Below, one piece after another: positions 1 to 27,265 of a stretch of DNA of 64,000 nt. The translations under genes were made by a program, and so were the position numbers. The stretch's first letter is position 1. Each line of letters begins with the position of its first letter. Location of the stretch: positions 1 through 64,000 of the forward strand of contig NZ_JABCQO010000006.1 in NCBI RefSeq assembly GCF_015244675.1, written 5' to 3'. Source of the stretch: Gluconobacter cerevisiae (GTDB lineage: Bacteria; Pseudomonadota; Alphaproteobacteria; Acetobacterales; Acetobacteraceae). A model generated the notes under the pieces. It saw only the letters and a list, made by a program, of their open reading frames with translations, did not search any database and was not told the origin of the DNA.

Positions 1-48
1 CTTCAGGATCCCTATGATCTGCTCTTCCGTAAAGCGACTGCGCTTCAT
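1..48 (-). CDS. IS3-family transposase OrfA, N-terminal fragment (cut by window)
   Basis: The 16 codons visible on the minus strand read MKRSRFTEEQIIGILK. This is the characteristic start of the IS3-family OrfA helix-turn-helix protein (pfam HTH_Tnp_1), which binds the IS ends. The rest of the gene lies outside the window, so intactness cannot be judged. Confidence 0.75.
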   Translation of the reverse strand, partial: MKRSRFTEEQIIGILK

Positions 49-111
49 TCGTCCGTATCCTTCTCGATCGGACTCTACTTTAAAATGGTGACATTTCCGG
101 GGAGCACGTCA
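1..111 (-). mobile_element. Terminal part of an IS3-family insertion sequence (continues left of window)
   Basis: The complement of this stretch starts with TGACGTGCTCCCCGG at position 111, a TGA-type terminus usual for IS3-family elements. It then runs into the start of an orfA reading frame at 48. Only the 5' end of the element is inside the window. The exact terminus and the target duplication cannot be confirmed because the other end is missing. Confidence 0.6.
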
Positions 112-202
112 GGATAAAAACACTTTTAAAACATTAAATATGTGATATTTTAGGTTATAGTAACATGAATCTGATGAGGGAATATCATACCTCACTTAGA
201 GA

Positions 203-1594
203 ATGTTTTTCATCTTTACCGGTAAACTATATCCTGTGAGGCAATACGTGGCCAAGTCCGATCCTATCGTCCAGTTACCGGACGGTTTTTATCTCAATCG
301 CACACCTTTGCTCGCATTTGGTTTGTTGTGTTGTCTGTTCTCTCTATGGGGCTGCGCCATGAGCCTCAATGACGTGTTGATCGGGCAGTTCCGCAAAGCC
401 TTCATGCTGTCGGATTTTCAATCTGCCCTCGTGCAGTTTTCCTTTTACATCAGTTATTTTGTGCTGGGCATTCCAGCAGGTATGATTATTAAGAAATTCA
501 GCTACAAATGGTCCATCCAGTTGGGATTGTTCCTTTACCTTATCGGCTGTTGTCTGTTTTTTCCCGCAGCATATTTTGCGACATATCAGATATTCTTCGT
601 GGCTCTTTTTGTTGTTGCTGCCGGACTGGTCTTTATTGAAACCGCTGCCGATACTTACTGCACCCTGCTTGGCCCACCGGGCCGTGGAACGCATCGTCTG
701 AATTTTGCGAGTGCTTTCCAACCGATAGGCGCCATTCTGGGAGCCAGCATGGGGGCGTATCTAATTTTCAAGGAAAACGATCTTTCGCGTGAGCAGCTCT
801 CCGCCATGCCGGTTGCTCAGGCATGGCAGCATCAACTCGTTATGATCCACGCCACTCTTGAGCCCTATGTCTACATCCTGGGGGTTCTACTGGTCGTCAT
901 GATCGCCATTGGCGTCACGCGTTATCCAGCCTGCAAAGGGCGTGATCAGCAACGCAGTTATGAGCTCGATACTGCGGGTGCCCTCAAAAGGTTGTTTGCC
1001 AATAAACGCTTCGTCCTCGGTATTCTGACCCAGTTTCTATATGTCGGCGCACAGGTGGGCGTCTGGAGCTTCATTATCCGTCTTTCCATGAGACTGGGCC
1101 ACATTAACGAAAGACAGGCATCTGTTTACCTGATCGCGTCATTTTGTGCGTTTTTTGTTGGCAAGCTGGTGGCCAATTTCTTCATGCGGCACGCTCGTCC
1201 GGCGCGAGTTTTGCTCGTTTACAGTTTGCTCTGCATTATTGCACTAGGTTATGCGGTCATGGTGCATGACTTCACGGCTGTGTATGCAGCTATTCTCGTT
1301 AGCGGGCTGCTCGGTCCCTGCTGGCCAACGATCTATGGCCTGACCGTTGATGAACTGGGCCATGACCGCGCTTATGGCGGATCAATTCTGGTTATGAGCA
1401 TTAGTGGCGGTGGCATTCTTCCACTATTGCAAGGTTATATTTCAGATTCTACTGGTGGAAACATGCAACTTGCTTATGTCGTGCCGATGGGGTGTTTCTT
1501 CATGATTGCAATCTTCGCAGCGTACTGCATAAGAAATACGAATGAAGCAGAAAATCATACAGATGTGAACTCTGTTTTTCAAACAATTGATTAA
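203..1594 (+). CDS. MFS sugar:H+ symporter, FucP (L-fucose permease) family
   Basis: This 463-residue protein has about 12 hydrophobic segments and belongs to the FHS (fucose-galactose-gluconate-H+) branch of the major facilitator superfamily, in the inner membrane. Family landmarks include a first helix with LNDVL followed by QF, which keeps the Asp that couples protons in FucP. The fourth helix has FIETAAD, keeping the conserved Glu, and is followed by a Gly-Pro-rich loop and a RLNFASAFQPIGA segment. The ATG at 203 gives an N-terminus longer than usual. A GTG at 236 is an alternative start, and neither has a strong ribosome-binding site. The sugar is unknown. The gene stands alone between an IS3 end and an IS3 remnant, so it may lie on transferred DNA. 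Confidence 0.85.
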   Translation: MFFIFTGKLYPVRQYVAKSDPIVQLPDGFYLNRTPLLAFGLLCCLFSLWGCAMSLNDVLIGQFRKAFMLSDFQSALVQFSFYISYFVLGIPAGMIIKKFSYKWSIQLGLFLYLIGCCLFFPAAYFATYQIFFVALFVVAAGLVFIETAADTYCTLLGPPGRGTHRLNFASAFQPIGAILGASMGAYLIFKENDLSREQLSAMPVAQAWQHQLVMIHATLEPYVYILGVLLVVMIAIGVTRYPACKGRDQQRSYELDTAGALKRLFANKRFVLGILTQFLYVGAQVGVWSFIIRLSMRLGHINERQASVYLIASFCAFFVGKLVANFFMRHARPARVLLVYSLLCIIALGYAVMVHDFTAVYAAILVSGLLGPCWPTIYGLTVDELGHDRAYGGSILVMSISGGGILPLLQGYISDSTGGNMQLAYVVPMGCFFMIAIFAAYCIRNTNEAENHTDVNSVFQTID

Positions 1595-1626
1595 GATAAA
1601 ATTCGCTTTGAGAGAAAGTGGGTTTT

Positions 1627-1823
1627 ATGGGTAAAGCAACGTGCAAGACGTATGCGGAGGAGGCAAATCACGGGTTGCCCCGAAGGTGATCCGTGAAGAG
1701 CTGATGTTGGTGGATCTGGTGTCGAAACATGGCTTGCAGCAGATGATGATCGCGCAGTTGCAGGCATGGCAGCGATTTTCTCAAGCACAACGAGGCTTTC
1801 ACATTTCGGGGTGCTTTCAATAG
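1627..1823 (+). pseudogene. Decayed IS3-family orfA (frameshifted)
   Basis: The ATG at 1627 opens with MGKATCKTYAEE. After a one-base frame change near 1660 the reading continues KSRVAPKVIREELMLVDL and then VSKHGLQQMMIAQ. Together these resemble the helix-turn-helix half of an IS3-family OrfA (canonical KHGVHQTMIA). Beyond about 1790 the similarity fades, and no orfB follows. It is a remnant without expected function. Confidence 0.7.
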
Positions 1824-1863
1824 GTTGTGCGAAGCTACGAAATCTTTGTGGGCGCTTAGTGCA

Positions 1864-2184
1864 TTATTCGTGGTTGGATATTTTCATTAAGATGAGGCCA
1901 CAAACTATGAAGATTGCAGCTAAAGCTCTGGTCAGGGTGAACGCTTCTCCCAAGATAAATATCCCGACTAAAAATGCCCCGATTGCGCCTATTCCTGTCC
2001 AAACCGCGTAAGCCGTTCCCAGAGGCAAAGACTTCATAGCCAGAGAAAGTAGACCGAAACTAATCAACATCCCCACAAACGTGACTATGGAAGGCCAGAG
2101 CTTTGAAAACCTATCTGACTGTTTCATGGCAAAGGCTCAGATTACCTCGAAAGCACCAGCAACGATAAGAACAATTCAGTTCAT
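1864..2184 (-). pseudogene. gdx: Small multidrug resistance (Gdx/SugE guanidinium exporter) gene with TGA at two Trp codons
   Basis: From the ATG at 2184 the minus strand encodes a full-length SMR protein of 106 residues, except that codons 3 (2176-2178) and 16 (2137-2139) are TGA. In Gdx/SugE proteins these positions are Trp (start M-x-W-I, then E-V-x-W). The essential membrane Glu sits between them in FEVI. The part after the second TGA is well conserved: four-helix pattern, LPLGTAYAVWTGIGA signature and GE in the last loop, with Trp there encoded by ordinary TGG. A translation starting at the ATG at 2127 would give only 87 residues and would lack helix 1 and the catalytic Glu. The gene is probably inactivated by two G-to-A changes. 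It lies 27 bp downstream of the argO-like gene on the same strand. Confidence 0.75.
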
Positions 2185-2211
2185 AGAGATTTTCCAGCAT
2201 TTTTAAGAAAT

Positions 2212-2829
2212 TCAGAGAGCCCGTCGGAGCAAAAGAGTTGCGAGGAAGAGCATCACACACCCGATAACAAGATCTAAAATCTTCCAGGATTTTGGTGTGG
2301 CAAACATTGGCTGCAAAAAACGTGCGCCATATCCTAACGCTCCAAACCACAAAAAACTCGCTGATGCCGCCCCAACTGCAAAAAAAGATCTGAGATGGAG
2401 CGGTTGCGCTGTGGAGGCCGTGCCCATCAAAAGCATCGTATCGAGATAGACATGCGGGTTAAGCCAGGTGAATGCTGCTACGGAGGTCAATGCTCTTGAT
2501 AAAGAGACGGGCCCGCCTTCAGTCACTGTCATGCTCTCAGAAAGTGTGGCCTGTCGTAGCGCTTTGATGCCGTACCAAAACAGAAATCCGGCGCCAGCAA
2601 GGGTAAATCCTTTTGCGACGTGTGGCAGTGAGACGAGTAGAGCGCCCATTCCACTTACTCCTGCTATAACCAGGATAGCGTCTGAAAAGCCGCAGAAAAG
2701 AACGATTGGACCGACATATTCGTTCTTCAAACCCTGTCGAAGAACGAACAGATTTTGAGCGCCAATAGCGACAATCAGCGAGGCAGAAAGCGCAAATCCG
2801 GACAAAAAACTGATAATGAAAGGCATCAT
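2212..2829 (-). CDS. argO: LysE/ArgO-family amino-acid exporter
   Basis: This 205-residue inner-membrane protein has about six hydrophobic segments. The LysE/ArgO hallmark GAQNLFVLRQGL lies near residue 22, and TWLNPHVYLDT near residue 120. The family exports basic amino acids such as arginine and lysine to prevent toxic accumulation. It is divergently paired with an ArgP-like LysR regulator 73 bp away, the arrangement seen for argO/argP and lysE/lysG, which supports the call. The exported amino acid (Arg, Lys or another) cannot be set from the sequence. Two adjacent ATGs (2829 and 2826) are both possible starts. Confidence 0.85.
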   Translation of the reverse strand: MMPFIISFLSGFALSASLIVAIGAQNLFVLRQGLKNEYVGPIVLFCGFSDAILVIAGVSGMGALLVSLPHVAKGFTLAGAGFLFWYGIKALRQATLSESMTVTEGGPVSLSRALTSVAAFTWLNPHVYLDTMLLMGTASTAQPLHLRSFFAVGAASASFLWFGALGYGARFLQPMFATPKSWKILDLVIGCVMLFLATLLLRRAL

Positions 2830-2850
2830 TCAGCTTGTTTACGCAGCACA

Positions 2851-2904
2851 ATCAATGAAGGAAAACTTGTTTTTCTTATCCTGATAAAGCAATCCTTCAT
2901 TGAT
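2851..2904. promoter_or_regulatory. Perfect 12-bp inverted repeat between argO-like and argP-like genes
   Basis: The arms are ATCAATGAAGGA at 2851-2862 and its exact complement TCCTTCATTGAT at 2893-2904, separated by 30 bp that include an AT-rich stretch. The right arm runs into the ATG of the LysR gene at 2903. Placement suggests an operator for the divergent regulator, or an RNA hairpin hiding its start codon. Either reading is inference. Confidence 0.5.
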
Positions 2905-3823
2905 GTTGGACTATAACGCTCTTATGGCCGTCAGTGCTGTTATCCGAGAAGGCTCTTTTGAGGGTGCGGCGAGGAAATTGAATATTACGGCTTCTGCCGT
3001 TTCTCAACGCATCAGAGGATACGAAGACCGGCTGGGTGCTCTGCTAGTTATCCGGGGACAGCCATGCAGACCAACAGACCTGGGGCAGGCTCTGGTAACT
3101 CATCTGGACAAAGTCTGTTTGCTCGAGGCGGAAATTCCTCATCTTTCGCACGCGTCAGGCTTTTTGTTGCAATCCGAGATTACTCTCAGAATTGCCGTAA
3201 ACGCGGACAGTCTTGCAACGTGGTTTCCAGGGGCCATCTCGCGCTTTGCAACAGAAACAGCCATTTGTCTGGACCTTCTCGTCGAAGACGAGACCTGTAC
3301 AGCAGATCGTCTTCGGGCAGGCGAGGTCACAGCCGCGATTACGGCCCAAGCGGAGCCGATTCCAGGATACAAGTCCGTCCATTTAGGGAAGATGCAATAT
3401 GTTGCCTGTGCCACTCCTGATTTTGCAGCAAGCTACTTCAGTAACGGAGGAACAGTAGCCGAGTTTAGGGATGCACCCTGTATATGCTTTGACCGAGACG
3501 ACGCTCTGGAAGCGCGATGGTTGTATGATCTTCACAAAATCGCTCTGCCATCACGGATACATTACATTCCTTCGACGCAGGGCTTCCTTGATTTTACACT
3601 CAAGAATGTCGGGTGGGGGTTACAGCCGCTCGCCCTGGTGGATAAATATCTGTCTCAGGGTAATCTGATCGAGGTTATTCCTGATCATCGGATTACTGTT
3701 GACCTTTATTGGGTTATACCAAGAATGAATAGTAAATTATTGAATGATCTCACTATTCACTTAAAAAACGAATGTGTGAAACATTTTTGGTTCGATAGAA
3801 GCGTAGGGAATTATACCGTTTGA
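2903..3823 (+). CDS. argP: LysR-family regulator, ArgP/LysG type
   Basis: The protein has 306 residues. It starts LDYNALMAVSAVIREGSFEGAA and has a helix-turn-helix with ITASAVSQRIRGYEDRLG, which is the ArgP/IciA/LysG pattern (canonical ITQSAVSQRIKQLE). The C-terminal two thirds fit the periplasmic-binding-like effector domain. The protein is expected to sense a basic amino acid and to activate the divergent exporter gene. The ATG at 2903 was chosen over a TTG one codon upstream. The start codon overlaps the right arm of a 12-bp inverted repeat, so autoregulation is plausible. Confidence 0.85.
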   Translation: MLDYNALMAVSAVIREGSFEGAARKLNITASAVSQRIRGYEDRLGALLVIRGQPCRPTDLGQALVTHLDKVCLLEAEIPHLSHASGFLLQSEITLRIAVNADSLATWFPGAISRFATETAICLDLLVEDETCTADRLRAGEVTAAITAQAEPIPGYKSVHLGKMQYVACATPDFAASYFSNGGTVAEFRDAPCICFDRDDALEARWLYDLHKIALPSRIHYIPSTQGFLDFTLKNVGWGLQPLALVDKYLSQGNLIEVIPDHRITVDLYWVIPRMNSKLLNDLTIHLKNECVKHFWFDRSVGNYTV

Positions 3824-4095
3824 ATATATTTGTTTTTTTGACGTGAATAATTTAGATGCGAGGTATTGCTAGAATCCGTTACTATACATCTGTTTGATGT
3901 TTTTTACTCTGCTGACGTCACACATTCGTCGGGCAGAACCCTAGCAATCTGGGGCAGAATTTCTTCTGTCAGCATCTTTTGGGAAAAGGAAATCCCAGCC
4001 AAGGCGCTTGAGCCTGACGAAATTTCCTTGGGATATTGGTCTGTAAAAAGACTCCAAACCAGAGTCGAAACAATCGACGCTTAGATATTCCGACG

Positions 4096-4938
4096 TTACG
4101 TCCAGGAGGGAATGATGGCTCCGTGATAGGCTTCAAGCAGCTTGGTGCGGACATTGGGTTTTTGAAAAGCGCTCACCAGTGGCTGAACCCAGTTGGCATG
4201 GGCATCGGGCTCGTTTACGGCAATGAAATTGATGTAGGGATTGTTGTCCATACTCTCACGGGCGAGACGTTCCGATTTGAGATCGATCCCGGCTTTGTAA
4301 GCCCATTCCGTAATCACTACGCCAGCATCCAGATCTGGCAGAGACCGCGCCAGAACAGGATCATCCAGTTCCTTGATCGTCAGGTTTTTTGGATTTTCGG
4401 AGATGTCGATTGCGGTTGGCATTTCGCCTGCGTCAGATGAAATCTTCAGCAGTCCGAGAGATTGCAAGAGTTTAAGCGCGCGTCCTTCGTTCGTAGGGTC
4501 CGCAGGAACGCCGATCGTTGCACCATCAGGAATTGTGGAGAGTGTTTTCCATTTTTTCGAATAAAAGCCGATCGGTGCGAAGTAGGTGTTTCCAACAGGC
4601 ACGATATGAGATCCAAGCGCGGTATTCTGGGCTTGAAGGTAAGGGCCGTGTTGAAATGCGTTGGCGTCCAGATCTTCTGCCGCAAGGGCTGCGTTGATCG
4701 GATTCCCTTCAGAAAAAGTGACGACTTCGATGGTCAAGCCTGTCGTGCGGGCATTTTCCTGAACAATACGCCAGATATCCTCGTCTTCTCCTGACAGGAT
4801 ACCGACCCGTACAGGCTTTGCTTGCGCGTTTGCGGATGGACCAATGAGCGATGTGGCAGCGAGGAGCGTGAGTAGGCTGCGACGCCCCAGAGAAATACCG
4901 GGCGCGGACTGTTTCTGGCTTGGAAGGCGATTACGCAT
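4096..4938 (-). CDS. metQ: MetQ/NlpA-family methionine-type ABC substrate-binding protein
   Basis: The 280-residue protein belongs to the NlpA/MetQ family of periplasmic binding proteins for D/L-methionine and related compounds. Visible signatures are VRVGILSGEDEDIW at the mature start, FSEGNPINAALAAEDLDANAFQH, PIGFYSKKWKTL and VPADPTNEGRALKLL. The leader has GRRSLLTLL followed by a hydrophobic stretch and ANAQA, and no Cys lipobox is visible. Export as a soluble, possibly Tat-dependent protein is therefore inferred, unlike lipoprotein MetQ of E. coli. The start ATG at 4938 overlaps the stop of the upstream oxygenase gene by 8 nt (ATGCGTAA), suggesting translational coupling. The matching ATPase and permease are encoded on the other strand at 8.6-10.1 kb. 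Confidence 0.85.
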   Translation of the reverse strand: MRNRLPSQKQSAPGISLGRRSLLTLLAATSLIGPSANAQAKPVRVGILSGEDEDIWRIVQENARTTGLTIEVVTFSEGNPINAALAAEDLDANAFQHGPYLQAQNTALGSHIVPVGNTYFAPIGFYSKKWKTLSTIPDGATIGVPADPTNEGRALKLLQSLGLLKISSDAGEMPTAIDISENPKNLTIKELDDPVLARSLPDLDAGVVITEWAYKAGIDLKSERLARESMDNNPYINFIAVNEPDAHANWVQPLVSAFQKPNVRTKLLEAYHGAIIPSWT

Positions 4939-6043
4939 GGTGCAGGGCTTTCGAGGGAACGGCAGAGAAAAGATCACTGTGATGTCGGGCCGCGACATCT
5001 GGATGGGAGCGCAGCCGCCCTTTGAGTGTGTTCTGTCCGATCTGGGAAAAGAGAGGATTGTTGGGGTCCTGCGTGATCCCGCTGCTGGAGCTTGCCAAGG
5101 CGTCGGGTAGCGGGAGGATTGGCATCGTTGCGTCGAGTTGTGCCCCAAGGAAAAAGGCTGCGGAAAGCCTGTCCCGCCCTGAGTTCGGGCTGACGACACG
5201 ATGAACCGCAGCCTTGAAATATCCGCTTGTGGCGACTTCCAGCAATTCGCCGATGTTGACGATGAACGTCTCCGGCTGGGGTGGTGCCTGAAGCCACTCA
5301 CCGTTTGCCAGTTCCACTTCCAGTCCGCCCTCATTGTCCTGAAGGATGAGCGAGAGGAGGTCGCTGTCTTTATGAGCGCCCACGCCCTGCCTTTCTCCCT
5401 CCCCCTGATGGCCGGGATAATGGATGAGTTTCAAAAGCTGATAAGGCGTATTGCTGACGACGGGATGAAAAGCGTTCGCTGCTTGACCTAGAGATAAAGC
5501 AAGCGCTTCTAACAGGCGCCTGAGGACATTCAGAACCTGCTCCTGCCATGACAGAACAATTATCTTGAGTTGTGGAAGTGTGTCTGGCCATTGGTTGGGT
5601 CCCTGAAGGCGCAGGTAAGCTGGCTTGTCCTTCAGATCTTCCACGATGGCTCGTTCGGGGCCGATATCGAGTTGCTCCCGCCAATCTGCTTTGCCGCGTG
5701 TGATCTCTCGGCCTGCATGATTATACCCTCTGAAATGTGGAGAATTAACCATAGAAATACGTTCTTTTTGCGTCATCGGCAGAGAGAAAAACCTGGTCGC
5801 CTGTGCCATGAGATCGGTATTCAGATCAGCCGAAATTCCATGGCCTTTCAGGTAAAAGAAGCCATATTCGTGGGCAGCGTTGCGCAGAGATGCAAGGAAA
5901 ATCTCGTCTGGCGCCTGATGATCCTGCCACTGGGACAGGTCGATGGTGGGTAGAGAAAGAGTGCTCTGCGTCATACACGTAACCACTTTCGGCTCTGAAT
6001 TTTTTGCCCTTGGAACCCCTTTTTCAGCAGATTCCAAGGTCAT
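4931..6043 (-). CDS. 2-oxoglutarate/Fe(II) oxygenase, isopenicillin N synthase-like
   Basis: This cytosolic non-haem iron oxygenase has the N-terminal DIOX_N part (LPTIDLSQW, FFYLKGHGI) and a C-terminal double-stranded beta-helix. Counting from the inner Met at 5974, the iron ligands are H201 and D203 in GAHKDSD and H258 in AVHRV. The 2OG-anchoring RxS is R269/S271. The gene has two candidate starts: 6043 (370 aa, AGGA just upstream) and 5974 (347 aa, closer to family length). It is translationally coupled to metQ and divergent from a TonB receptor-metNI operon. It may therefore oxidise the compound imported by that system, but the substrate is unknown. Confidence 0.8.
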   Translation of the reverse strand: MTLESAEKGVPRAKNSEPKVVTCMTQSTLSLPTIDLSQWQDHQAPDEIFLASLRNAAHEYGFFYLKGHGISADLNTDLMAQATRFFSLPMTQKERISMVNSPHFRGYNHAGREITRGKADWREQLDIGPERAIVEDLKDKPAYLRLQGPNQWPDTLPQLKIIVLSWQEQVLNVLRRLLEALALSLGQAANAFHPVVSNTPYQLLKLIHYPGHQGEGERQGVGAHKDSDLLSLILQDNEGGLEVELANGEWLQAPPQPETFIVNIGELLEVATSGYFKAAVHRVVSPNSGRDRLSAAFFLGAQLDATMPILPLPDALASSSSGITQDPNNPLFSQIGQNTLKGRLRSHPDVAARHHSDLFSAVPSKALHHA

Positions 6044-6163
6044 GCGTCCTCATATAACCCTCCATAAAACGCGATATATATTAAATCCACATCAATGTTA
6101 TGTTTGACTCAAAAAACACTATGAAATAATCAACAAAACACAAATCTTCTTGAAAGAACTTTT

Positions 6164-8632
6164 ATGCGTAGTGGTTATGTCCTGGCGCCACTTCTTGTTG
6201 GCCTTTCGTTTTCCGGGACCTTTCCGGGGGCTGTCGCGGCCGAAAATACTTCGGGTCAGGATAGTACCGGCGTGAAAAAACAGTCCAGAAAAGAGACTGT
6301 GGTCAAAAAAAACGTGCCTGTCGTCAGGACAGAACAGGCTGTGGCTGACGAACCGGAGCAGGTCATCGTGACGGGTACGCGCGATCCCTCCCAAACGGCG
6401 GCACGCAGCATCAGCCCCATTACGATCATTGGGGGCAACCAGCTTAGGGCGACAGGCATGACGGACATCCGGGAGGCGCTGGTCCAGCTTTCTCCCTCCA
6501 TCAGCCGTGAAGTCAATGGATCGGATCAGGGATCGGTCGTAGATGCGCTAAGTCTTCGGGGACTAAATGCCGATCAAACCCTGGTGCTGGTGAATGGCAA
6601 AAGACGGCATACGACAGCCGCCATTGCGGTGGATGCGTCTTCACAGCAGGGAACGACCCCTGTCGATCTGGATATGATCCCGATTTCTGCAGTCGATCAC
6701 ATTGAGATCCTGCAGGATGGTGCGGCTGCTCAGTATGGATCGGACGCGATCGCGGGCGTGATCAACGTCATTCTGAAATCCAACAATCACGGCATCCATC
6801 TTCAAGCTGTCAATGGCGGTTATGCTGCAGGAGATGGCTTTACGACCGGTGAAAACCTGAATGCAGGTTTCAAGCTGGGTCATCGTGGATTCCTGAATCT
6901 CAGTGCGGAATTCAAACATCAGGATCGCACCCAGAGAACGGGGATTGATCCCCGGACCGGTAAAAATAACGATCTGGCAACGGGGCAGCCTCAGGTGACG
7001 CGTGAGTCCATCGAAACGAATTTCGGCTATCATGTGACGGATGCCATAGAGCTTTATGGTTTTGGAACATTCACGCACCGCGATGCCGAACGTTGGGCTT
7101 TTCTGCGTGCTCCGAGCACCACTGCGGCTGACGGGCTTTCCGGGATGTATCCGAACGGGTTTGAACCCGTCGAAACAATGCCTGAGAATGATTATGGCTT
7201 CACGCTCGGTTTTCGAGGAAAACGACTTTACGGTTTTGACTGGGATCTGAGTTCCACGATCGGTGGAGACCACGACACGCTGGGGGATTATAATTCCGCC
7301 AACGCAGACGCTTATAAAGAGACAGGATATTCCCCGTCGCGTTTCTTTCTTGGCAGTTACTCCAACCAGCAATGGACGAACAATCTCGATATTCGGCGCG
7401 GCGTAGATCTGCCGTTTCTGTATAGCCCCTTGAATATCGCATTTGGTGGCGAATATCGCCGCGATACCTATTCCATAGGAGCGGGAGAACCGTTGTCGTA
7501 TTACCTGAGCGGTGCACAGGGATATCAGGGCGAAACGCCTCAGGATGCTGTCAACGCAGCCAGGCACGTCGCAGCAGCCTATGTTGATTTCTCGACGCAA
7601 ATCGTCAAACGCTGGCGGGTGGATCTTGCTGGACGGTTTGAGCACTATGACGACGTCGGAAATGCGCGGACGGGAAAGATCTCCACGCGATATGACATCA
7701 ACCGTTTCATCGGATTTCGCGGTACCGCCAGCACCGGCTTTCGTGCTCCGACCCTTGCGGAACAGAATTTTGCGGCTTTCATCTCCAGTCCGAATTATGC
7801 CACCGGACAGATTGCGGCCAATTCGCCCGCTGCGCGTGCTTTGGGATCGCCTGGCCTCAGGCCGGAGACATCCACCAATTTCAGTGCGGGTATGATCCTG
7901 AATCCATTGCCTCGGCTTCATATTAATGTCGACGGTTATACAATCTACATCAAGCACCGGATCGTTGATGGAGGGTACGCTTCAGGTGCCCGGGCTGTAG
8001 AAGCCTATGCCGCAGCAGGCGTGGATACTTCCGGTTTCGCCGGCGATGAAACTGCGGTCAGTACAAATTACTTCACGAATGGCGCCAGTACCCGTACGAC
8101 CGGCCTTGATATCACGGCACGTTATTCTTCGGACTTTGGGCGTTATGGGAAAGTGGACTGGGATGCCGCCGTCAATTTCAACCATACCAATGTCAAAAAC
8201 ATTGCGCGGACTGGGGAGGGGGCTCCGGTTCTGAACGCTCAGCAGATCAGTTTGATGTCAACGGAAAACCCGTCCAACAAGCTGATTTTTGGAGGGATAT
8301 GGCGTCAGGGGAAATGGACGGTCGCTGTCCACGAAATCCGGTATGGTCATACAACGTCCAACCTGACATTCGTTTCGGGAAGCAATGCTTTTTCGACAAC
8401 GGATTTTTATCATCAGATTAACCGCCCGCGCTTCGTGACCAATCTTGAAGTCGGTTATCAGGTTCTGCCTCAGCTTCATCTGGCGCTGGGCGGCAACAAT
8501 GTCGGGAATGCCCATCCCAGCCGTGTGCCGTCCTTTACGGCAGATTATAACAACAATCTCTACGACACACTTAGTCAGCAGCTTTCCGAAGAGGGTGGTT
8601 TTTACTATCTTCGCGCTGATCTTTCTCTTTGA
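6164..8632 (+). CDS. TonB-dependent outer-membrane receptor
   Basis: The 822-residue protein starts with a signal peptide (hydrophobic core LAPLLVGLSF, cleavage near AVAA-EN). A TonB-box-like EQVIVTGT lies near residue 65. The plug domain follows, with DALSLRGLNADQTLVLVNGKR and the conserved IEILQDGAAAQYGSDAIAG. A long barrel completes the protein, with FIGFRGTASTGFRAPTLAEQ typical of TonB receptors. The C-terminus ends RADLSL rather than the usual terminal Phe. It overlaps or abuts metN, so receptor and inner-membrane ABC proteins appear to be co-transcribed. This suggests energy-driven uptake of a scarce methionine-like or organosulfur compound across both membranes. The ligand is not identifiable. 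Confidence 0.88.
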   Translation: MRSGYVLAPLLVGLSFSGTFPGAVAAENTSGQDSTGVKKQSRKETVVKKNVPVVRTEQAVADEPEQVIVTGTRDPSQTAARSISPITIIGGNQLRATGMTDIREALVQLSPSISREVNGSDQGSVVDALSLRGLNADQTLVLVNGKRRHTTAAIAVDASSQQGTTPVDLDMIPISAVDHIEILQDGAAAQYGSDAIAGVINVILKSNNHGIHLQAVNGGYAAGDGFTTGENLNAGFKLGHRGFLNLSAEFKHQDRTQRTGIDPRTGKNNDLATGQPQVTRESIETNFGYHVTDAIELYGFGTFTHRDAERWAFLRAPSTTAADGLSGMYPNGFEPVETMPENDYGFTLGFRGKRLYGFDWDLSSTIGGDHDTLGDYNSANADAYKETGYSPSRFFLGSYSNQQWTNNLDIRRGVDLPFLYSPLNIAFGGEYRRDTYSIGAGEPLSYYLSGAQGYQGETPQDAVNAARHVAAAYVDFSTQIVKRWRVDLAGRFEHYDDVGNARTGKISTRYDINRFIGFRGTASTGFRAPTLAEQNFAAFISSPNYATGQIAANSPAARALGSPGLRPETSTNFSAGMILNPLPRLHINVDGYTIYIKHRIVDGGYASGARAVEAYAAAGVDTSGFAGDETAVSTNYFTNGASTRTTGLDITARYSSDFGRYGKVDWDAAVNFNHTNVKNIARTGEGAPVLNAQQISLMSTENPSNKLIFGGIWRQGKWTVAVHEIRYGHTTSNLTFVSGSNAFSTTDFYHQINRPRFVTNLEVGYQVLPQLHLALGGNNVGNAHPSRVPSFTADYNNNLYDTLSQQLSEEGGFYYLRADLSL

Positions 8633-8634
8633 AT

Positions 8635-9453
8635 ATGATGGTGATGCAGAATACGGGTATGGCTGAAGCGAATGAGATGTTGAAAGTTGAAGGTCTGTCA
8701 AAGACCTTTGATGGTCACTTTGCGCTGGAAAATATCAGCTTTTCTGTTCTTCGCGGTGAAATTGTAGGGCTCATTGGGCGTTCGGGAGCAGGGAAAACGA
8801 CCTTGCTTCGTTGCCTGAATGGCGCAGAAACCCTGGATTCAGGGCACGTTCTCGTTGAAGGAAAAAACCTCAGCGTTCTTAAAGAACGGGAACTGCTTGC
8901 CCTTCGGCAACGGATCGGTCTTGTTTTTCAGGGGTTCAATCTTCTTCAGTCCCGGACTGTGGCGGGCAATATTTCTCTTGGTCTGGAAATTTTGGGAATT
9001 CCCAAAAAAGAGCGGCAGCACCGTATTCAGGAACTGATCCATCTGGTCGGCCTTGAAGAGCATGAGACAAAACACCCTTCGCAGCTTTCCGGAGGGCAAA
9101 AGCAGAGGGTTGGGATCGCAAGAGCGCTGGCGGGTCATCCGGCTATTTTGTTGTGTGACGAAGCAACATCCGCGTTGGACCCTGAAGCAACGACTTCAAT
9201 TCTTGCCCTTCTTAAGGCCGTTAATAAAGAGCTTGGTGTTACGGTCATTCTCATTACACACGAAATGGATGTTATCCGCCGTCTGGCTCACCGGGTGCTT
9301 GTGCTTGATCAGGGGCGTATTGTTGAAGATATCTCCAGTGAGTTACTGCACAAAGGGGAGGCGAAGCATGCCTTAACGCAGTCTTTCATCAGTCGTTTGC
9401 CGAATAATGGAGAAGACATGGAGGCCGCCGGATATGCATCATCAGGTTTTTGA
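8635..9453 (+). CDS. metN: Methionine-type ABC transporter ATP-binding protein
   Basis: This cytoplasmic ATPase has Walker A GRSGAGKTT, Q-loop FQGFNLL, the signature LSGGQKQRVGIARAL, Walker B ILLCDEATSAL and the switch His in ITHEMDVI. The MetN-like ALDPEATTSIL is also present. At about 272 residues it ends soon after the nucleotide-binding domain, so the C-terminal regulatory NIL/ACT domain of E. coli MetN (about 343 aa) is absent and trans-inhibition by methionine is not expected. Several start codons are possible (ATG at 8635, 8638, 8644, 8659). None has a good ribosome-binding site, which fits coupling to the receptor gene ending at 8632. Confidence 0.88.
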   Translation: MMVMQNTGMAEANEMLKVEGLSKTFDGHFALENISFSVLRGEIVGLIGRSGAGKTTLLRCLNGAETLDSGHVLVEGKNLSVLKERELLALRQRIGLVFQGFNLLQSRTVAGNISLGLEILGIPKKERQHRIQELIHLVGLEEHETKHPSQLSGGQKQRVGIARALAGHPAILLCDEATSALDPEATTSILALLKAVNKELGVTVILITHEMDVIRRLAHRVLVLDQGRIVEDISSELLHKGEAKHALTQSFISRLPNNGEDMEAAGYASSGF

Positions 9454-10093
9454 TCTGTTTTTCAAAGCCACGCTGGCGACGCTCGAAATGGTTTTTGCGT
9501 CCGCAGCAATTGCCGTTCTCTTTGGATTGCCTCTCGCTATTCTCCTCACCATCACGAGGTCCGGGGGACTATGGCCCGTTCGTCCCATCGGTCGGATTCT
9601 TGGGGTTGTGGTTGATCTGACAAGAGCAGTGCCCTTCATTATTCTTCTTGTCGTTTTGATCCCTTTCACGCGCTTAGTAATGGGAACGGCTCTTGGGACT
9701 GCCGCGGCCATCGTTCCATTGTCCATTACCGCGATCCCATATTTCGCGCGCATCGCGGAAGTCTCATTGAGAGAGGTGTCTCCGGAACTGATTGATGCGG
9801 TTCGTGCTATGGGCGCAACACGGACGAAAGTCGTTCGCTCGGTTCTTATTCCCGAGGCTTTACCAGGGCTGGTCTCCGGCCTGACCGTCACGCTGGTCAC
9901 ACTCATCAGTGCATCTGCCATGGCGGGTGTTGTTGGCGCAGGTGGACTGGGGGATCTTGCAATCCGCTACGGATACCAAAGGTTTAATACAACCATGATG
10001 TTGTGGGTGGTGAGCATTCTTGTTGTATTGACGATTCTTGTTCAGATCGTCGGGAATTCTATTTCTGCCCGATTGAGGAAGAATTTCATATGA
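9434..10093 (+). CDS. metI: Methionine-type ABC transporter permease
   Basis: The 219-residue inner-membrane permease matches the family size. It has about five membrane helices and the conserved EAA-type loop EVSPELIDAVRAMGATRTKVVRSVLIPEALP in two parts, then GVVGAGGLGDLAIRYGYQRF. The ATG at 9434 is preceded by GGAGG and fits the family length. The start overlaps the end of metN by 20 bp, so the two are translationally linked. With the binding protein encoded at 4.1-4.9 kb it would form a complete MetNIQ-type importer. Confidence 0.88.
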   Translation: MHHQVFDLFFKATLATLEMVFASAAIAVLFGLPLAILLTITRSGGLWPVRPIGRILGVVVDLTRAVPFIILLVVLIPFTRLVMGTALGTAAAIVPLSITAIPYFARIAEVSLREVSPELIDAVRAMGATRTKVVRSVLIPEALPGLVSGLTVTLVTLISASAMAGVVGAGGLGDLAIRYGYQRFNTTMMLWVVSILVVLTILVQIVGNSISARLRKNFI

Positions 10094-10146
10094 GGATGGT
10101 GTTCCTCTTGATGACGCCTTTAGGAAGCTCAGACGCTATTAAGAGC

Positions 10147-10178
10147 ACCTTTCCAGCTCAGCTATAGGCTGGGAAGGT
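10147..10178. terminator. Stem-loop between convergent metI and alkylsulfatase genes
   Basis: Arms ACCTTTCCAGC (10147-10157) and GCTGGGAAGGT (10168-10178) form an 11-bp stem with one G-U pair and a 10-nt loop. There is no clear U-tract on either strand, so termination is only a possibility given the convergent genes. A second short inverted repeat, GCAGCCA/TGGCTGC, lies at 10198-10232. Nothing else recognisable was seen in 10094-10295. Confidence 0.4.
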
Positions 10179-10295
10179 ACTGTCTAACCTATGATATGCA
10201 GCCAAAATCTTCTTGATCCTGTTTCTGGCTGCAATCGTCATATTTCTACCTTGAGGCTTAATTCCATATCGATTTCGGTATATTATCCTTGAGTA

Positions 10296-11228
10296 TCAAT
10301 CATCTAAATCATGTCCGTCATCTGGGCCTTTAAGCTGACGGCTTTTTTCACCAGTGATGCTAATAGGAGTGTCTCCGCGCACGGTAATCCGGCGTAGGAG
10401 GCGGGGATGGGTGTCGAAGTCGGCTGTGGCGTAGTGTTGCGTGGCACGGTTGTCCCAGATGGCGACATCACCGGGTTTCCAGTTCCAGCGGACGGTATTG
10501 TCGATCTGCGTGATGTAGGACTGAAAGATTTCCAATAGCCGGTTGGCATGTTGGGTAGGAATACCACGGATTTCTTTGAAAAAATGACCCAAAATAAGCG
10601 TGCGTTCACCGGTTTCCGGGTGGACGCGGACGACCGGGTGCTCCGTTTCATAAATCTTTGAGATGAAGCTTGCGCGAAAATTGGCAATTTCCTCGTGACG
10701 AAGATCATATTTATAGAAATTGGTATCGTAGTCGTTGCCATGAACGGCCCAGAGCGTGTCGGCGAGCTGTTGCAGCGGGGCGGGCAGGTCGTCATAGGCC
10801 GTGGCCGTATTGGCCCAGAGAGTGCTGCCACCATAAGGCGGGATCGTGATGGCGCGCAGAATGGAGGCTTTGGGATAGGCGGGGACGAACGTGACATCCG
10901 TGTGCCAGGAATCCGTGGAGCGGCCGTTGCGGGAGTTCAGCTCGAATGTATAGGGGGTGCCGTCTGCGGCCGGGATGGTCGGATGGAGGATCGGGTCCCC
11001 AAAAACACGGCTGAGTGTTTCATGCTGGGCGTCATCAAGAAACTGATCGCGCAGGAAGATCACCTTGTGGCGCAGCAGGGCGTCATGAAGAAACGCCTTG
11101 TGTTCTTCGGGCAAAGGCTCGCGGGCATTGACGCCATGAATGATGGCACCGATGCGGGATGTTACCTTTTCGGCTTTGAGGGTGTCGGCGAAGGCGGGTT
11201 CGCGGGGGACAATGCTGAGGTTCGTCAT
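10296..11228 (-). CDS. AtsK/TauD-like 2OG-Fe(II) dioxygenase (alkylsulfatase type)
   Basis: This 310-residue cytosolic enzyme is of the TauD/TfdA superfamily. Iron ligands are H109 and D111 in SWHTDVTF and H265 in RATQHYATADF, with Arg residues for 2-oxoglutarate near 276-280. The pattern AYPKASILRAITIPPYGGSTLWANT and the TVRW.W..GDVAIWDNRATQHY block resemble the alkylsulfatase AtsK more than taurine dioxygenase TauD. AtsK oxidises alkyl sulfate esters to release sulfate during sulfur starvation. The start overlaps the MFS gene stop by 4 nt (ATGA). It is the last gene of a five-gene minus-strand operon. A taurine or other sulfonate substrate is not excluded. Confidence 0.82.
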   Translation of the reverse strand: MTNLSIVPREPAFADTLKAEKVTSRIGAIIHGVNAREPLPEEHKAFLHDALLRHKVIFLRDQFLDDAQHETLSRVFGDPILHPTIPAADGTPYTFELNSRNGRSTDSWHTDVTFVPAYPKASILRAITIPPYGGSTLWANTATAYDDLPAPLQQLADTLWAVHGNDYDTNFYKYDLRHEEIANFRASFISKIYETEHPVVRVHPETGERTLILGHFFKEIRGIPTQHANRLLEIFQSYITQIDNTVRWNWKPGDVAIWDNRATQHYATADFDTHPRLLRRITVRGDTPISITGEKSRQLKGPDDGHDLDD

Positions 11229-12508
11229 GAGGGAAGTCCTTCGGGCTGGGGGACTACGGTGCTGTTGAGAGCACGGTCAGGGCGTGTGAGAGGCGGGGGG
11301 GTGATGAAAAAAGTGAGGATGGCGCTGGCTAGAAAGAGTGCGGCGTAGATGAGAATAATGCCCTGCGTGCCGACAGCACCTTCAAAAGCATAGACGATGA
11401 AGGGGCCAATCCAGACGCTGCTGCCGGCACCGAGGTTCAGCAGGGACATGGCGATGCCTTTGTGGTCCGGTAAGAGAGACGGCGTCAGGGCCGAGAGCGG
11501 CACATATCCGGCAAGCGTCATCCCGAAGACGGCAGCAGAGGCGTAGACTGTGAACAGGCTGCTTTGGGCGTAGAGTAGGGGAATCCAGTACAGTCCGACG
11601 CAGCTCAACGCGCTGCCGATGCCGCCGAACCAGATCACGGTCTGGCGCCAGGAAATATAGTCGCTGGCAAAACCGATCAGCAAGTTGAAGACGATATTGC
11701 TGGCGAAGATGATTTCCAGAAACCGGATCCACACATCCTGCGACAGGCCCAGACGGCTGGTGAAGAAGAAGGGCATGAAGACGATCAGGCCATGCGTGGC
11801 GCTGGAATTGACCGCACGTACGATGCAGGCCAATCCCACGCCCGGATTGTAACGGATCTGGCGGACTGTTTCGCGCAGGGTCGGGCCTATATCCTTCAGG
11901 CTCCCTTTCTGCGACCGGGGCGTGGCAGGTAGGGGCAGGATGGCGAGAACGCCCCCCGCTCCTACGCCGAGCAGGGCGATCCAGAGCGTAACGTACTGGC
12001 CGTACACTGGCAGCAGGAGTTGCGCCACGATGGAGCCGACCGTAGGCAGGCCGCAGGTGAAGCAGAACCAGAACAGGCCGACGGCCCGTCCCAGACGGTC
12101 CTGCCGGACCGTGGTGACGAGCAGGGTCAACAGTCCGTAGGAAAACAGCGGATAGCCTGCTCCGCGCAGTCCGTAGGTCAGCAGAAGCAGGGTTGGAGAA
12201 TGGGCGGGAATGGCGACGCTGAGGAACAGGAGCTGTGGGAGAACCCAGAACAGCAAACCTGCGGTCATGACCGTGCGGCTGCCGAAAATATCGCATAGCA
12301 GGCCCGAGAACCAGGCCGCCAGGGCAGCAGCCAGCCCATAGGCCGTAAAAAGGAGGGCGACGAAGTGTTCCGTCTGGCCCGTCTGGACCAGAAAGGGCGA
12401 CAGATAGCCGACCTCGACACCATCTCCGATCATAAAAACCAGAAGCCCGGCATATTGCAGCGCGAAGCTCCGTGGCAGGCGGCTGGCGGGCAGGGGTATC
12501 GTCTGCAT
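11225..12508 (-). CDS. MFS transporter in organosulfur operon
   Basis: The 427-residue protein has about 12 membrane segments and a degenerate MFS loop motif (SGLLCDIFGSRTV after helix 2). Its position between a TonB receptor gene and an alkylsulfatase-like dioxygenase gene suggests import of the compound delivered to the periplasm, but efflux is possible. Starts at 12508 and 12523 are both feasible. The ATG at 12508 lies 2 nt after the receptor stop codon at 12510-12512. The substrate is not recognised. Confidence 0.75.
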   Translation of the reverse strand: MQTIPLPASRLPRSFALQYAGLLVFMIGDGVEVGYLSPFLVQTGQTEHFVALLFTAYGLAAALAAWFSGLLCDIFGSRTVMTAGLLFWVLPQLLFLSVAIPAHSPTLLLLTYGLRGAGYPLFSYGLLTLLVTTVRQDRLGRAVGLFWFCFTCGLPTVGSIVAQLLLPVYGQYVTLWIALLGVGAGGVLAILPLPATPRSQKGSLKDIGPTLRETVRQIRYNPGVGLACIVRAVNSSATHGLIVFMPFFFTSRLGLSQDVWIRFLEIIFASNIVFNLLIGFASDYISWRQTVIWFGGIGSALSCVGLYWIPLLYAQSSLFTVYASAAVFGMTLAGYVPLSALTPSLLPDHKGIAMSLLNLGAGSSVWIGPFIVYAFEGAVGTQGIILIYAALFLASAILTFFITPPPLTRPDRALNSTVVPQPEGLPS

Positions 12509-24451: not shown

Positions 24452-26209
24452 TCAGGCTCTGAGGTCGCGCAGCAGATCGTGTCCATGTTGGGCAGCCATT
24501 CCGGCCTTCAAGTCCTTACCGACACTGCGTGCGCAAAGGGCAAGGGACAGGGCACCGGCATCGGGATGGCCCTTGCTGCGTTCGCCATGCATTTTCGCAC
24601 GTCCCATTCTTGGTAAGAGGTTGCGTGTATCCTGCGCTGCCTGATAGGCGGCTTCAGCACCTTCCATCCAAGCTTTGACGAGTTCATGGCCCGCGGCCAG
24701 TTCCCGCTCCAGCGTTTCCACAAACGGGACCAGCGCATCTACGAGCGTCTTGTCGCCGGGTTTTGCCCTGCCGAGCAGCATGATGCGTTCCATGCTGTTA
24801 CGTGCCCCCTGCGAAAGCTGTTCGGCACTTGGCAGACGGCCGTCATCGAGCGCCGTGCTAAACGCCCGCAGACCTTCTCCCCACAGAGCCCCCGATGTGC
24901 CGCCGGCACGGTCGGCCCACGCATCGGCGGCCGTGGCCAGAACCGTGGCAGGGCCTGCACCGGCATTGGCTGCGTTGCGGGCTGCGCGTGCCGACGCTGC
25001 TGACCCGCGCGCCATGCCCTGTCCATGATCGCCGTCGCCTGCAAGGGCGTCGATATGGCCCAAGCTGGACTCCTCGGCGGCCAGCATCTTCGCCAGATTT
25101 TCCATAACATCCGCGACGCACGCCCCGCCCTGACGGCCCGCTGCGGTGGCAGAGCGCATATAGACGATCGTGGCTTCATCCTCGACGGCAAGATCGGCCA
25201 CACCATCTCCGACCAGCGTTCCGTGGCGCAGGGCTGCGGAATCCACTGGTGCGCGCCAGTATTGCTCAAGGTCTTCATCGAGCCATGTCAGGGTGAGGGA
25301 ACAGCCCGCCATGTCCAGACTGGTGACATACTCGCCCACCAGCGGAGCAACGAGGGTTAGTCCGGCGTTTTCGAACATTGGCGCCAGTGCGTTCCACAGC
25401 ACGAAAAGCTCTTCCTGCTTGGTGCTGCCCAGACCGTTCAGCAGAACGGCGACACGGCGCGGTGCTTCATGGGGGATTTCGGCCAGCAGACGGTCGAACA
25501 GGATTTTTGCCAACACTTCCGGCGTGGGGACGTCTTGTTCATCAATTCCCGGTTCACCGTGAACGCCAAGCCCGAGGGCCATGCGATTTTTTGGGACTTC
25601 GAACAGTTTTTCCGCCTCGCCGGGCAGGGTGCAGCCATCGAAAGCCACGCCGAAGGTGCAGGTCTGACGGTTCACGCGATGCGCGACTTCCTCAACTTCA
25701 TCGAGCGTCAGGCCAGCTTCGGCAGCGGCCCCCACGACCTTGAAAATCAGCAGGTCTCCCGCAATGCCCCGGCGGCGTTCGCGGGTGGAGGCGTCCGAAC
25801 TGGCCACGTCATCGGCAGTTGCCAGAACGCGGACGTCATAGCCCTCTTCGCGCAGGCGGTCGGCGGCAATCCCGAAATTGAGCACATCGCCCGCGTAGTT
25901 GCCGTAGCCGAGGATGATTCCGCCGCCGAGATCGGCCTGCCGGGCGATGCTCTTGATGGCCTGCGTTGAGGGCGATGCGAAAATGTCGCCTGCCACGGCG
26001 GCATCGCCGAAGCCCTTGCCGACATAGCCCGCAAAGGCGGGATAGTGGCCTGAACCGCCGCCCAGTACGACGGCAACCTTGCCTTTCGGGCCGGGCTTTG
26101 CCCGCAGAACGCCACCACGGACGAGGCGCACAAGGTCATGATGGATCAGGCTGAACCCGCGCAGGGCCGACATTGCGAAATTGGATGCGTCGCCGCAGAT
26201 CTTGGTCAT
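24452..26209 (-). CDS. Fused DhaK-DhaL ketose kinase (dihydroxyacetone/L-erythrulose kinase)
   Basis: This 585-residue ATP-dependent kinase has a DhaK domain with GGGSGH at 50-55 and the substrate-binding His217 in GLGVHGEPG, which forms a covalent hemiaminal with the ketone. A DhaL nucleotide domain follows, with GDGDHG at 391-396, GGTSG and PGDKTLVDAL. Family members phosphorylate dihydroxyacetone or, in tetritol operons, erythrulose (LerK). The neighbourhood (RpiB and TIM homologues, ABC importer) favours a tetrulose. The ATG at 26209 follows GGAGG and is preferred over the longer frame. It is the last gene of the operon. Confidence 0.85.
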   Translation of the reverse strand: MTKICGDASNFAMSALRGFSLIHHDLVRLVRGGVLRAKPGPKGKVAVVLGGGSGHYPAFAGYVGKGFGDAAVAGDIFASPSTQAIKSIARQADLGGGIILGYGNYAGDVLNFGIAADRLREEGYDVRVLATADDVASSDASTRERRRGIAGDLLIFKVVGAAAEAGLTLDEVEEVAHRVNRQTCTFGVAFDGCTLPGEAEKLFEVPKNRMALGLGVHGEPGIDEQDVPTPEVLAKILFDRLLAEIPHEAPRRVAVLLNGLGSTKQEELFVLWNALAPMFENAGLTLVAPLVGEYVTSLDMAGCSLTLTWLDEDLEQYWRAPVDSAALRHGTLVGDGVADLAVEDEATIVYMRSATAAGRQGGACVADVMENLAKMLAAEESSLGHIDALAGDGDHGQGMARGSAASARAARNAANAGAGPATVLATAADAWADRAGGTSGALWGEGLRAFSTALDDGRLPSAEQLSQGARNSMERIMLLGRAKPGDKTLVDALVPFVETLERELAAGHELVKAWMEGAEAAYQAAQDTRNLLPRMGRAKMHGERSKGHPDAGALSLALCARSVGKDLKAGMAAQHGHDLLRDLRA

Positions 26210-26245
26210 GTGTTTTTCCTCCAGTCGTGTTCCGCAGTGGAACAA

Positions 26246-27265
26246 TCAGGCTGCATCACGGTTGAGGTAACGACGGGCCAGCGCGTCGAAGGAGATGGCG
26301 AGGACAACGATCCCGCCGCTGACGACCGACTGCCAGTAGGGCGAAATTCCGAACAGCACGATGATGTCTTCGATCATGCCGATAATGACGGCACCTAGGA
26401 CCGCTCCGACCGGGCTGCCGATGCCGCCTGTGGTCGCAACACCGCCAATGACGGCTGCGGCGATCGGTGCCAGAACCCAGGTGTCACCGATGGAGGGCTG
26501 GGCCGTTCCCAGACGGGCGACCATCAAGATCCCGGCGAGTGCTGACAGGAATCCGGCGAGGGCGAAAGCACCCATGCGGATGGCGTTGACGCGGATGCCC
26601 AGCATCCGGGCTGCGTCCGGGTTGCTGCCGATCGCGTAGATGTAGCGGCCGACGGGCGTACGGAACATCACAAACGCCACAACTGCCAGACACACCAGAA
26701 GCACGACGAACGGCACAGGGACGCCCATGACGAGCCCGCGTCCGAGAAAGGAGATGTCGCGCGGGATGCCCGTAATGGCCACGCCTTTGGTCGCAACGAG
26801 GTTGGCGCCGCCATAAACGCCGGCCATACCGATCGTCAGCACCAGCGAGTGCAGGCGGAGCTGCGTAATGAGCGCTCCGTTCAGCAACCCGCACCCGGCT
26901 CCCATCAGCAGGCACAGCCCGAGCGAAAGCCATGGGTTCAGACCGAGTTGCACCATTAAAATGCCGCCGACTACGCCTGCCAGACCGCCAATGGCGCCGA
27001 CGGACAGATCAAGCTCGCCCAGAATCATGAGAACGGACTGTCCGATCGTGACGAGCCCGACAAAGGCCAGCGCACGTGCGATGATCATCATGTTGAAAGA
27101 CGTCAGGAAGTGCGGCGACAGCGCACACGAGGCCCCGAAAATGATGACCAGCGCGGCGATGACGCCGCCCAGCGGATTGCCCACCAGACGCGACACCAAT
27201 GCTTTCATGGGCGGCATTTTCGGCGGCTTGGACGGCGCGGCGGGGAGGGTGGTTTCAAGCGACAT
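26246..27265 (-). CDS. Ribose-type sugar ABC transporter permease
   Basis: The 339-residue RbsC/EryF-like inner-membrane permease has around 8-10 helices. Features include ARALAFVGLVTIGQSVLMILGELDLSVG, IGSNPDAARMLGIRVN and AAAVIGGVATTGGIGSPVGAVLGA, all typical of CUT2 transporters. The ATG at 27265 has GGAG upstream and overlaps the ATPase stop by 11 bp. It works with the ATPase and binding protein encoded directly upstream. The presumed cargo is a tetritol or tetrulose. Confidence 0.88.
   Translation of the reverse strand: MSLETTLPAAPSKPPKMPPMKALVSRLVGNPLGGVIAALVIIFGASCALSPHFLTSFNMMIIARALAFVGLVTIGQSVLMILGELDLSVGAIGGLAGVVGGILMVQLGLNPWLSLGLCLLMGAGCGLLNGALITQLRLHSLVLTIGMAGVYGGANLVATKGVAITGIPRDISFLGRGLVMGVPVPFVVLLVCLAVVAFVMFRTPVGRYIYAIGSNPDAARMLGIRVNAIRMGAFALAGFLSALAGILMVARLGTAQPSIGDTWVLAPIAAAVIGGVATTGGIGSPVGAVLGAVIIGMIEDIIVLFGISPYWQSVVSGGIVVLAISFDALARRYLNRDAA

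Follow-up and report, generated by a model that had tools for sequence, protein, structure and literature searches.

Why should a small transporter gene carry TGA at two positions where its family has tryptophan, and show hardly any other sign of decay? The question is raised by a gdx/sugE-type gene of Gluconobacter cerevisiae, located at positions 1864..2184 on the minus strand of the window, i.e., the whole analysed stretch of 64,000 nucleotides of contig NZ_JABCQO010000006.1. A first-pass annotation made from the sequence considered two TGG-to-TGA changes without further damage an unusual way for a pseudogene to decay, and proposed that either the gene had died recently or UGA was tolerated by readthrough. 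We compared the frame with intact orthologs, reconstructed the changes on its lineage and checked how UGA is read in this genome. The reading that we prefer, with a probability of roughly 0.85, is that of a recently inactivated gene: it belongs to an already known exporter family and would be an ordinary young pseudogene.

The gdx frame and its lesions

Read from 2184 to 1864 on the minus strand, the frame comprises 106 residues of an SMR protein and a closing TAA. Codon 3 (2176..2178) and codon 16 (2137..2139) are both TGA, the codon for Glu13 (2148-2146) lies between them, and the number of frameshifts is zero. When translated through the stops, the frame matches the Pfam profile Multi_Drug_Res (PF00893), whose cut-off is 23.7 bits, with 91.3 bits. 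Of the NCBIfam models, SugE fits best, with a score of 104.5 bits (both stops entered as X) that stays under its cut-off of 126; as the intact genes of the two nearest relatives, L211 and L212, also remain below 126 (115.5 and 113.5 bits, respectively), this cut-off does not separate the clade.

Conservation was counted over 113 relatives (L003-L007, L031-L058, and L059-L138, the last set being the best 80 of 586, with identities up to 64%), and more distant SMR loci (L008-L030 together with L002) were kept out of the count and inspected separately. In this set, codon 3 corresponds to Trp in 113/113 relatives and codon 16 to Trp in 111/113, the other two having Phe. The residues Glu13, Ser42, and Trp62 are present in 113/113 and Tyr59 in 112/113; all four, whose roles in Gdx are described in PMC7695847, are kept in the window frame. 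Compared to Gdx-Clo, the frame is similar in length, Pfam family, the residues Glu13, Ser42, Tyr59, Trp62, and Lys101, as well as in the Gly-Ile-Gly at 64-66 in helix 3 (a motif taken from PMC9574504), but differs by the two TGA codons, of which the second replaces Trp16, and by an Arg at the invariant Gly25. According to PMC7695847, Trp16 is a residue of the Gdx subtype that helps to hold Glu13, and the W16G substitution lowers exchange without abolishing it; in the window, the codon of this subtype residue is TGA. Judged from its sequence, the gene is of the Gdx/SugE type within the SMR family and a putative guanidinium exporter.

The frame, the two stop codons, their location on family Trp positions and the glutamate between them are therefore as described in the first-pass annotation. 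Its further statement that there was no other damage stands as far as frameshifts are concerned, but not for codon 25 (2110..2112), a candidate third lesion that encodes Arg where 113/113 relatives have Gly. Among the columns with at least 98% conservation, this Arg is the only departure of the window gene besides the stops. Since 18% of the relatives themselves depart at one or more such columns, Arg25 on its own is mild evidence of damage, and the extra damage appears slight. An Arg at the same position is also found in an intact, distant SMR protein (L025, 39% identity), and one of the matches listed (G373, 39% identity) has an internal TAA.

A second intact gdx elsewhere in the genome was considered and rejected, as the sole other SMR match (contig C32) is 30% identical, has Ala at position 16 and is of a non-Gdx type. 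No guanidine riboswitch or other Rfam RNA reached the gathering score in the window.

The lysR-lysE-gdx cassette in two genera

An intact lysE-type translocator gene (2212..2829, minus strand; Pfam PF01810, 111.6 bits), the conserved partner of gdx in the relatives, is located 27 bases upstream of gdx, and a divergent, likewise intact lysR-type regulator gene (2900..3823, plus strand; Pfam PF03466 and PF00126) is the third member of the cassette. In the sister genus, gdx matches (E up to 1e-20) were obtained in 8 of the 49 genomes searched, none of them with internal stops, and the best proteins were 86% (G461) and 82% (G457) identical to the window frame. In six of these eight carriers, as in the window, gdx is preceded by a lysE-type gene and accompanied by a divergent lysR-type one; the other two (L216 and L217) have neither a lysE nor a lysR neighbour in the stretch examined. 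A gdx tree groups the window gene with L211 and L212 (FastTree support 0.82). The cassettes of these two relatives have the same gene order as that of the window, their DNA is approximately 81-83% identical throughout, and their gdx proteins are 86% and 82% identical; unlike the window gene, their gdx is free of internal stops, with Trp at both codon 3 and codon 16 and Gly at position 25.

In a blastn comparison of positions 1-12000 of the window, the two nearest intact relatives matched over 1858-3789 (L247) and 1862-3796 (L248), so that the common segment (1858..3796) consists of the cassette and little more, and homology ceases just beyond the gdx stop codon. At both sides it ends no more than about 40 bases from the ends of the cassette genes. 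The same compact arrangement is common to two genera of the family (the window, L211, L212, L043, L213, L214, and L215). Because two genera share the cassette and homology ends near its gene ends, it looks like a unit that has moved between genomes and that would combine an amino-acid-type exporter with a guanidinium exporter. Among the matches listed for named plasmid records, nothing exceeded 63% identity, and near relatives are possibly absent from that collection.

Within the genus of the window itself, a close gdx was found in none of the 25 other genomes, and a DNA search for gdx remnants in the 26 genomes of the genus gave, the window aside, chance-level matches only. The lysE of the cassette (E up to 1e-30) is present in 2 of these 26 genomes, namely that of the window and G016 (85% identical). 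The G016 locus is homologous to that of the intact relatives right up to, but not including, the gdx start codon, where a different sequence takes over. Both carriers found in the genus are hence without an open gdx at this locus, by different routes, and the absence of gdx after lysE in G016 makes the gene seem dispensable there too. Inspection by eye suggests that gdx was replaced by an integrated element in G016. A tRNA-like stretch and a repressor-like ORF, also recognized by eye, are situated beyond lysE in this genome (L249, ~7950-8170).

Adjoining gdx in the window is a stretch of about 213 bases (1560..1772) that matches a portion of IS3-family transposase genes at 74-80% identity (blastn against plasmids) and is probably a decayed IS remnant; a Pfam scan of two short ORFs in it gave no match. 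The start of the contig (1-111) also matches an IS3-family element, and both fragments resemble transposase genes of acetic acid bacteria.

Age of the probable inactivation and form of decay

On the lineage of the window gdx, the reconstruction against L211 and L212 counts 10 missense and 16 silent changes in addition to the 2 nonsense ones. The missense to silent ratios of the intact neighbours are 25:37 for lysE and 29:50 for lysR (Fisher p = 1.0 for gdx against each), thus most of the gdx lineage evolved under normal constraint, and the ratio of 10:16, being equal to that of intact genes, is compatible with a recent death. A simple two-phase model dated the first stop to 6-7 substitutions ago (median; 95% range 1-17) out of the 28 on the lineage, under three mutation biases. 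This model assumed a flat prior and an indel factor of 8% per substitution, represented the starting gene by L211, and set the pre-death ratio by pooling the neighbours and the sister branches. The scarcity of further damage fits such a young age. Missense changes are clustered in codons 1-36 (2184-2077), with 8 missense and 4 silent changes vs. 2 and 12 in the remainder (permutation p = 0.046 over cut points, with the cut picked afterwards); this clustering is a weak signal, yet plain neutral decay does not predict it.

The mutational target of the gene offers a simple account of why both lesions are Trp-to-TGA changes. Besides its Trp codons, the window gdx has one CAG, zero CAA, and zero CGA, so that transitions reach a stop mainly at Trp. 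In a calculation over the codons of the 108 relatives (out of 113) that have 95 or more codons ahead of the stop, Trp codons receive a mean share of 33-75% of the nonsense mutations, depending on the bias. Given two nonsense mutations, both hit Trp codons with a probability of 0.12-0.58, and both are Trp-to-TGA with a probability of 0.03-0.14, again by the mutation bias assumed. With TGG as the main one-step target for a stop, two such changes are not improbable and not strange enough to demand a special mechanism. The notion of an unusual way to decay is consequently not borne out. As a caution, two Trp-to-TGA changes should rather be seen as a likely way for the gene of a small membrane protein with Trp residues to decay, since few other codons of such a gene are a single step away from a stop. 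Out of the two outcomes that the first-pass annotation had proposed, recent death agrees with the intact orthologs in the sister genus and the 10:16 ratio, and readthrough gained no positive evidence.

In favour of a young pseudogene are therefore the two in-frame stops within the first 16 codons, the sense codons at positions 3 and 16 in 113/113 relatives with a stop common to none, the change of the invariant Gly25 to Arg, the adjoining probable IS remnant, the reading of UGA as an ordinary stop (see below), and the lack of gdx after lysE in G016. Against it count the missing relaxation over the whole lineage (10:16 vs. 25:37 and 29:50), the lack of a frameshift, the occurrence of Arg25 in the intact L025, and the missense cluster at the 5′ end. 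If gdx is inactivated, ribosomes would stop after two codons, and rare passage or restart would yield no working protein, since translation restarted from the in-frame ATG at codon 20 would omit helix 1 and the transport residue Glu13. The exporter would then be dispensable in this host, and its neighbours lysE and lysR, both with open frames, are presumably still working. Such a pseudogene matters little, as it would show how, in this genus, a small transferable cassette loses one of its genes, that of an accessory exporter. Among the papers retrieved on sugE pseudogenes, none obviously deals with such a case.

Other readings of the two TGA codons

The alternative that survives best, albeit with a low probability, is a gene that is still alive at a low level, in which the ordinary tRNA-Trp misreads UGA as Trp at both sites and a little normal exporter is made. 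It would account for two stops that are both TGA and both at Trp positions, this stop being the one reportedly misread by the ordinary tRNA-Trp, as well as for the lack of a frameshift and the normal missense to silent ratio. As stated by Belinky et al. 2021 (PMC7918605), in-frame stops are common in bacterial genes, TGA is leaky with Trp being inserted, dN/dS is 0.66 around in-frame TGA, and in-frame stops without other damage are poor pseudogene markers; it is this published leakiness that gives readthrough its share of the probability. The window gene resembles the cases of that study in having in-frame TGA and little other damage. It differs in that the same stop was required there in at least two species, whereas the window stops occur in no relative and are two in number. 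With the readthrough of approximately 6% that the same paper quotes for one TGA in B. subtilis, two stops per message would leave, by our arithmetic, < 0.4% of product. Neither TGA is kept in any ortholog, i.e., the stop has not been kept across species, and most stops of this kind are short-lived according to PMC7918605. Furthermore, the restriction of the stops to Trp is not improbable under decay, the invariant Gly25 is changed, and Trp16 belongs to the stack that holds Glu13 (PMC7695847). Slightly less probable still is the extended version, in which double UGA readthrough with Trp keeps the exporter at trace level because selection favoured turning it down over losing it; the normal missense to silent ratio of the lineage is compatible with this version. 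If readthrough were true, two leaky stops would here determine the amount of a transporter, which would be a rare situation.

About as improbable is a sequencing or assembly error concealing an intact gdx. The assembly is a draft of 40 contigs and gdx lies 1.9 kb from a contig end, but two substitution errors about 40 bases apart would be needed, with 45 long ORFs covering the remainder of the window, and the lineage has many other differences from its relatives in the same stretch.

A negligible probability falls to a shortened protein, started internally at codon 20 or 39 and now under selection: an ORF of 87 codons is open from the ATG at 2127 and just 2 missense vs. 12 silent changes follow codon 36 (with the cut chosen afterwards, permutation p 0.046), but this product would be without helix 1 and Glu13, which is strictly conserved and needed for transport (PMC7695847), the changed invariant Gly25 is part of the ORF that starts at codon 20, and the excess of silent changes is accounted for by purifying selection that acted until the stops arose.

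Equally negligible is the probability that UGA is decoded as an amino acid, be it through an altered genetic code, a suppressor tRNA, selenocysteine insertion or A-to-I editing, in favour of which there is just the fact that the TGA codons coincide with Trp positions. In this genome, UGA serves as an ordinary stop. RF2 was found (518.7 bits), and ARAGORN typed 46 of the 47 tRNA matches, among which there is a single tRNA-Trp (anticodon CCA) and none with the anticodon UCA of a UGA-reading tRNA. TGA terminates 29 of the 45 window ORFs of at least 200 codons. Beyond the TGA, the frame remains open for > 300 codons in 4 of these 29, where the downstream part resembles, by eye, the neighbouring gene or another frame; in the one such pair for which both parts were scanned (24452-26245 and 26246-27301), the Pfam families are distinct, one part matching a permease family and the other Dak1/Dak2. 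RF2, the lack of a UCA tRNA among the 46/47 typed matches and the frequent use of TGA as a stop rule out, within the reach of the assembled sequence, a recoded genome, which the first-pass annotation had rightly held to be unlikely, and the same 46 typed matches rule out a suppressor tRNA with a UCA anticodon to the same extent. Selenocysteine is likewise ruled out in the assembled sequence, as the lone match of the tRNA-Sec model above its cut-off (47.3 vs. 47 bits) is at a place typed as tRNA-Ser, which scores better (63.2 bits) as an ordinary tRNA. A-to-I editing by TadA requires TACG (PMC12255301), a motif that occurs in gdx only at codon 59, hence neither TGA fits and editing is excluded as far as the known motif goes. 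The remaining tRNA match (L209; G000 C18:772-845) scores 29.3 bits, barely past the cut-off, is rejected by ARAGORN and has, by eye, a CAT-like loop; it appears to be a degenerate tRNA-like sequence, possibly a tRNA remnant.
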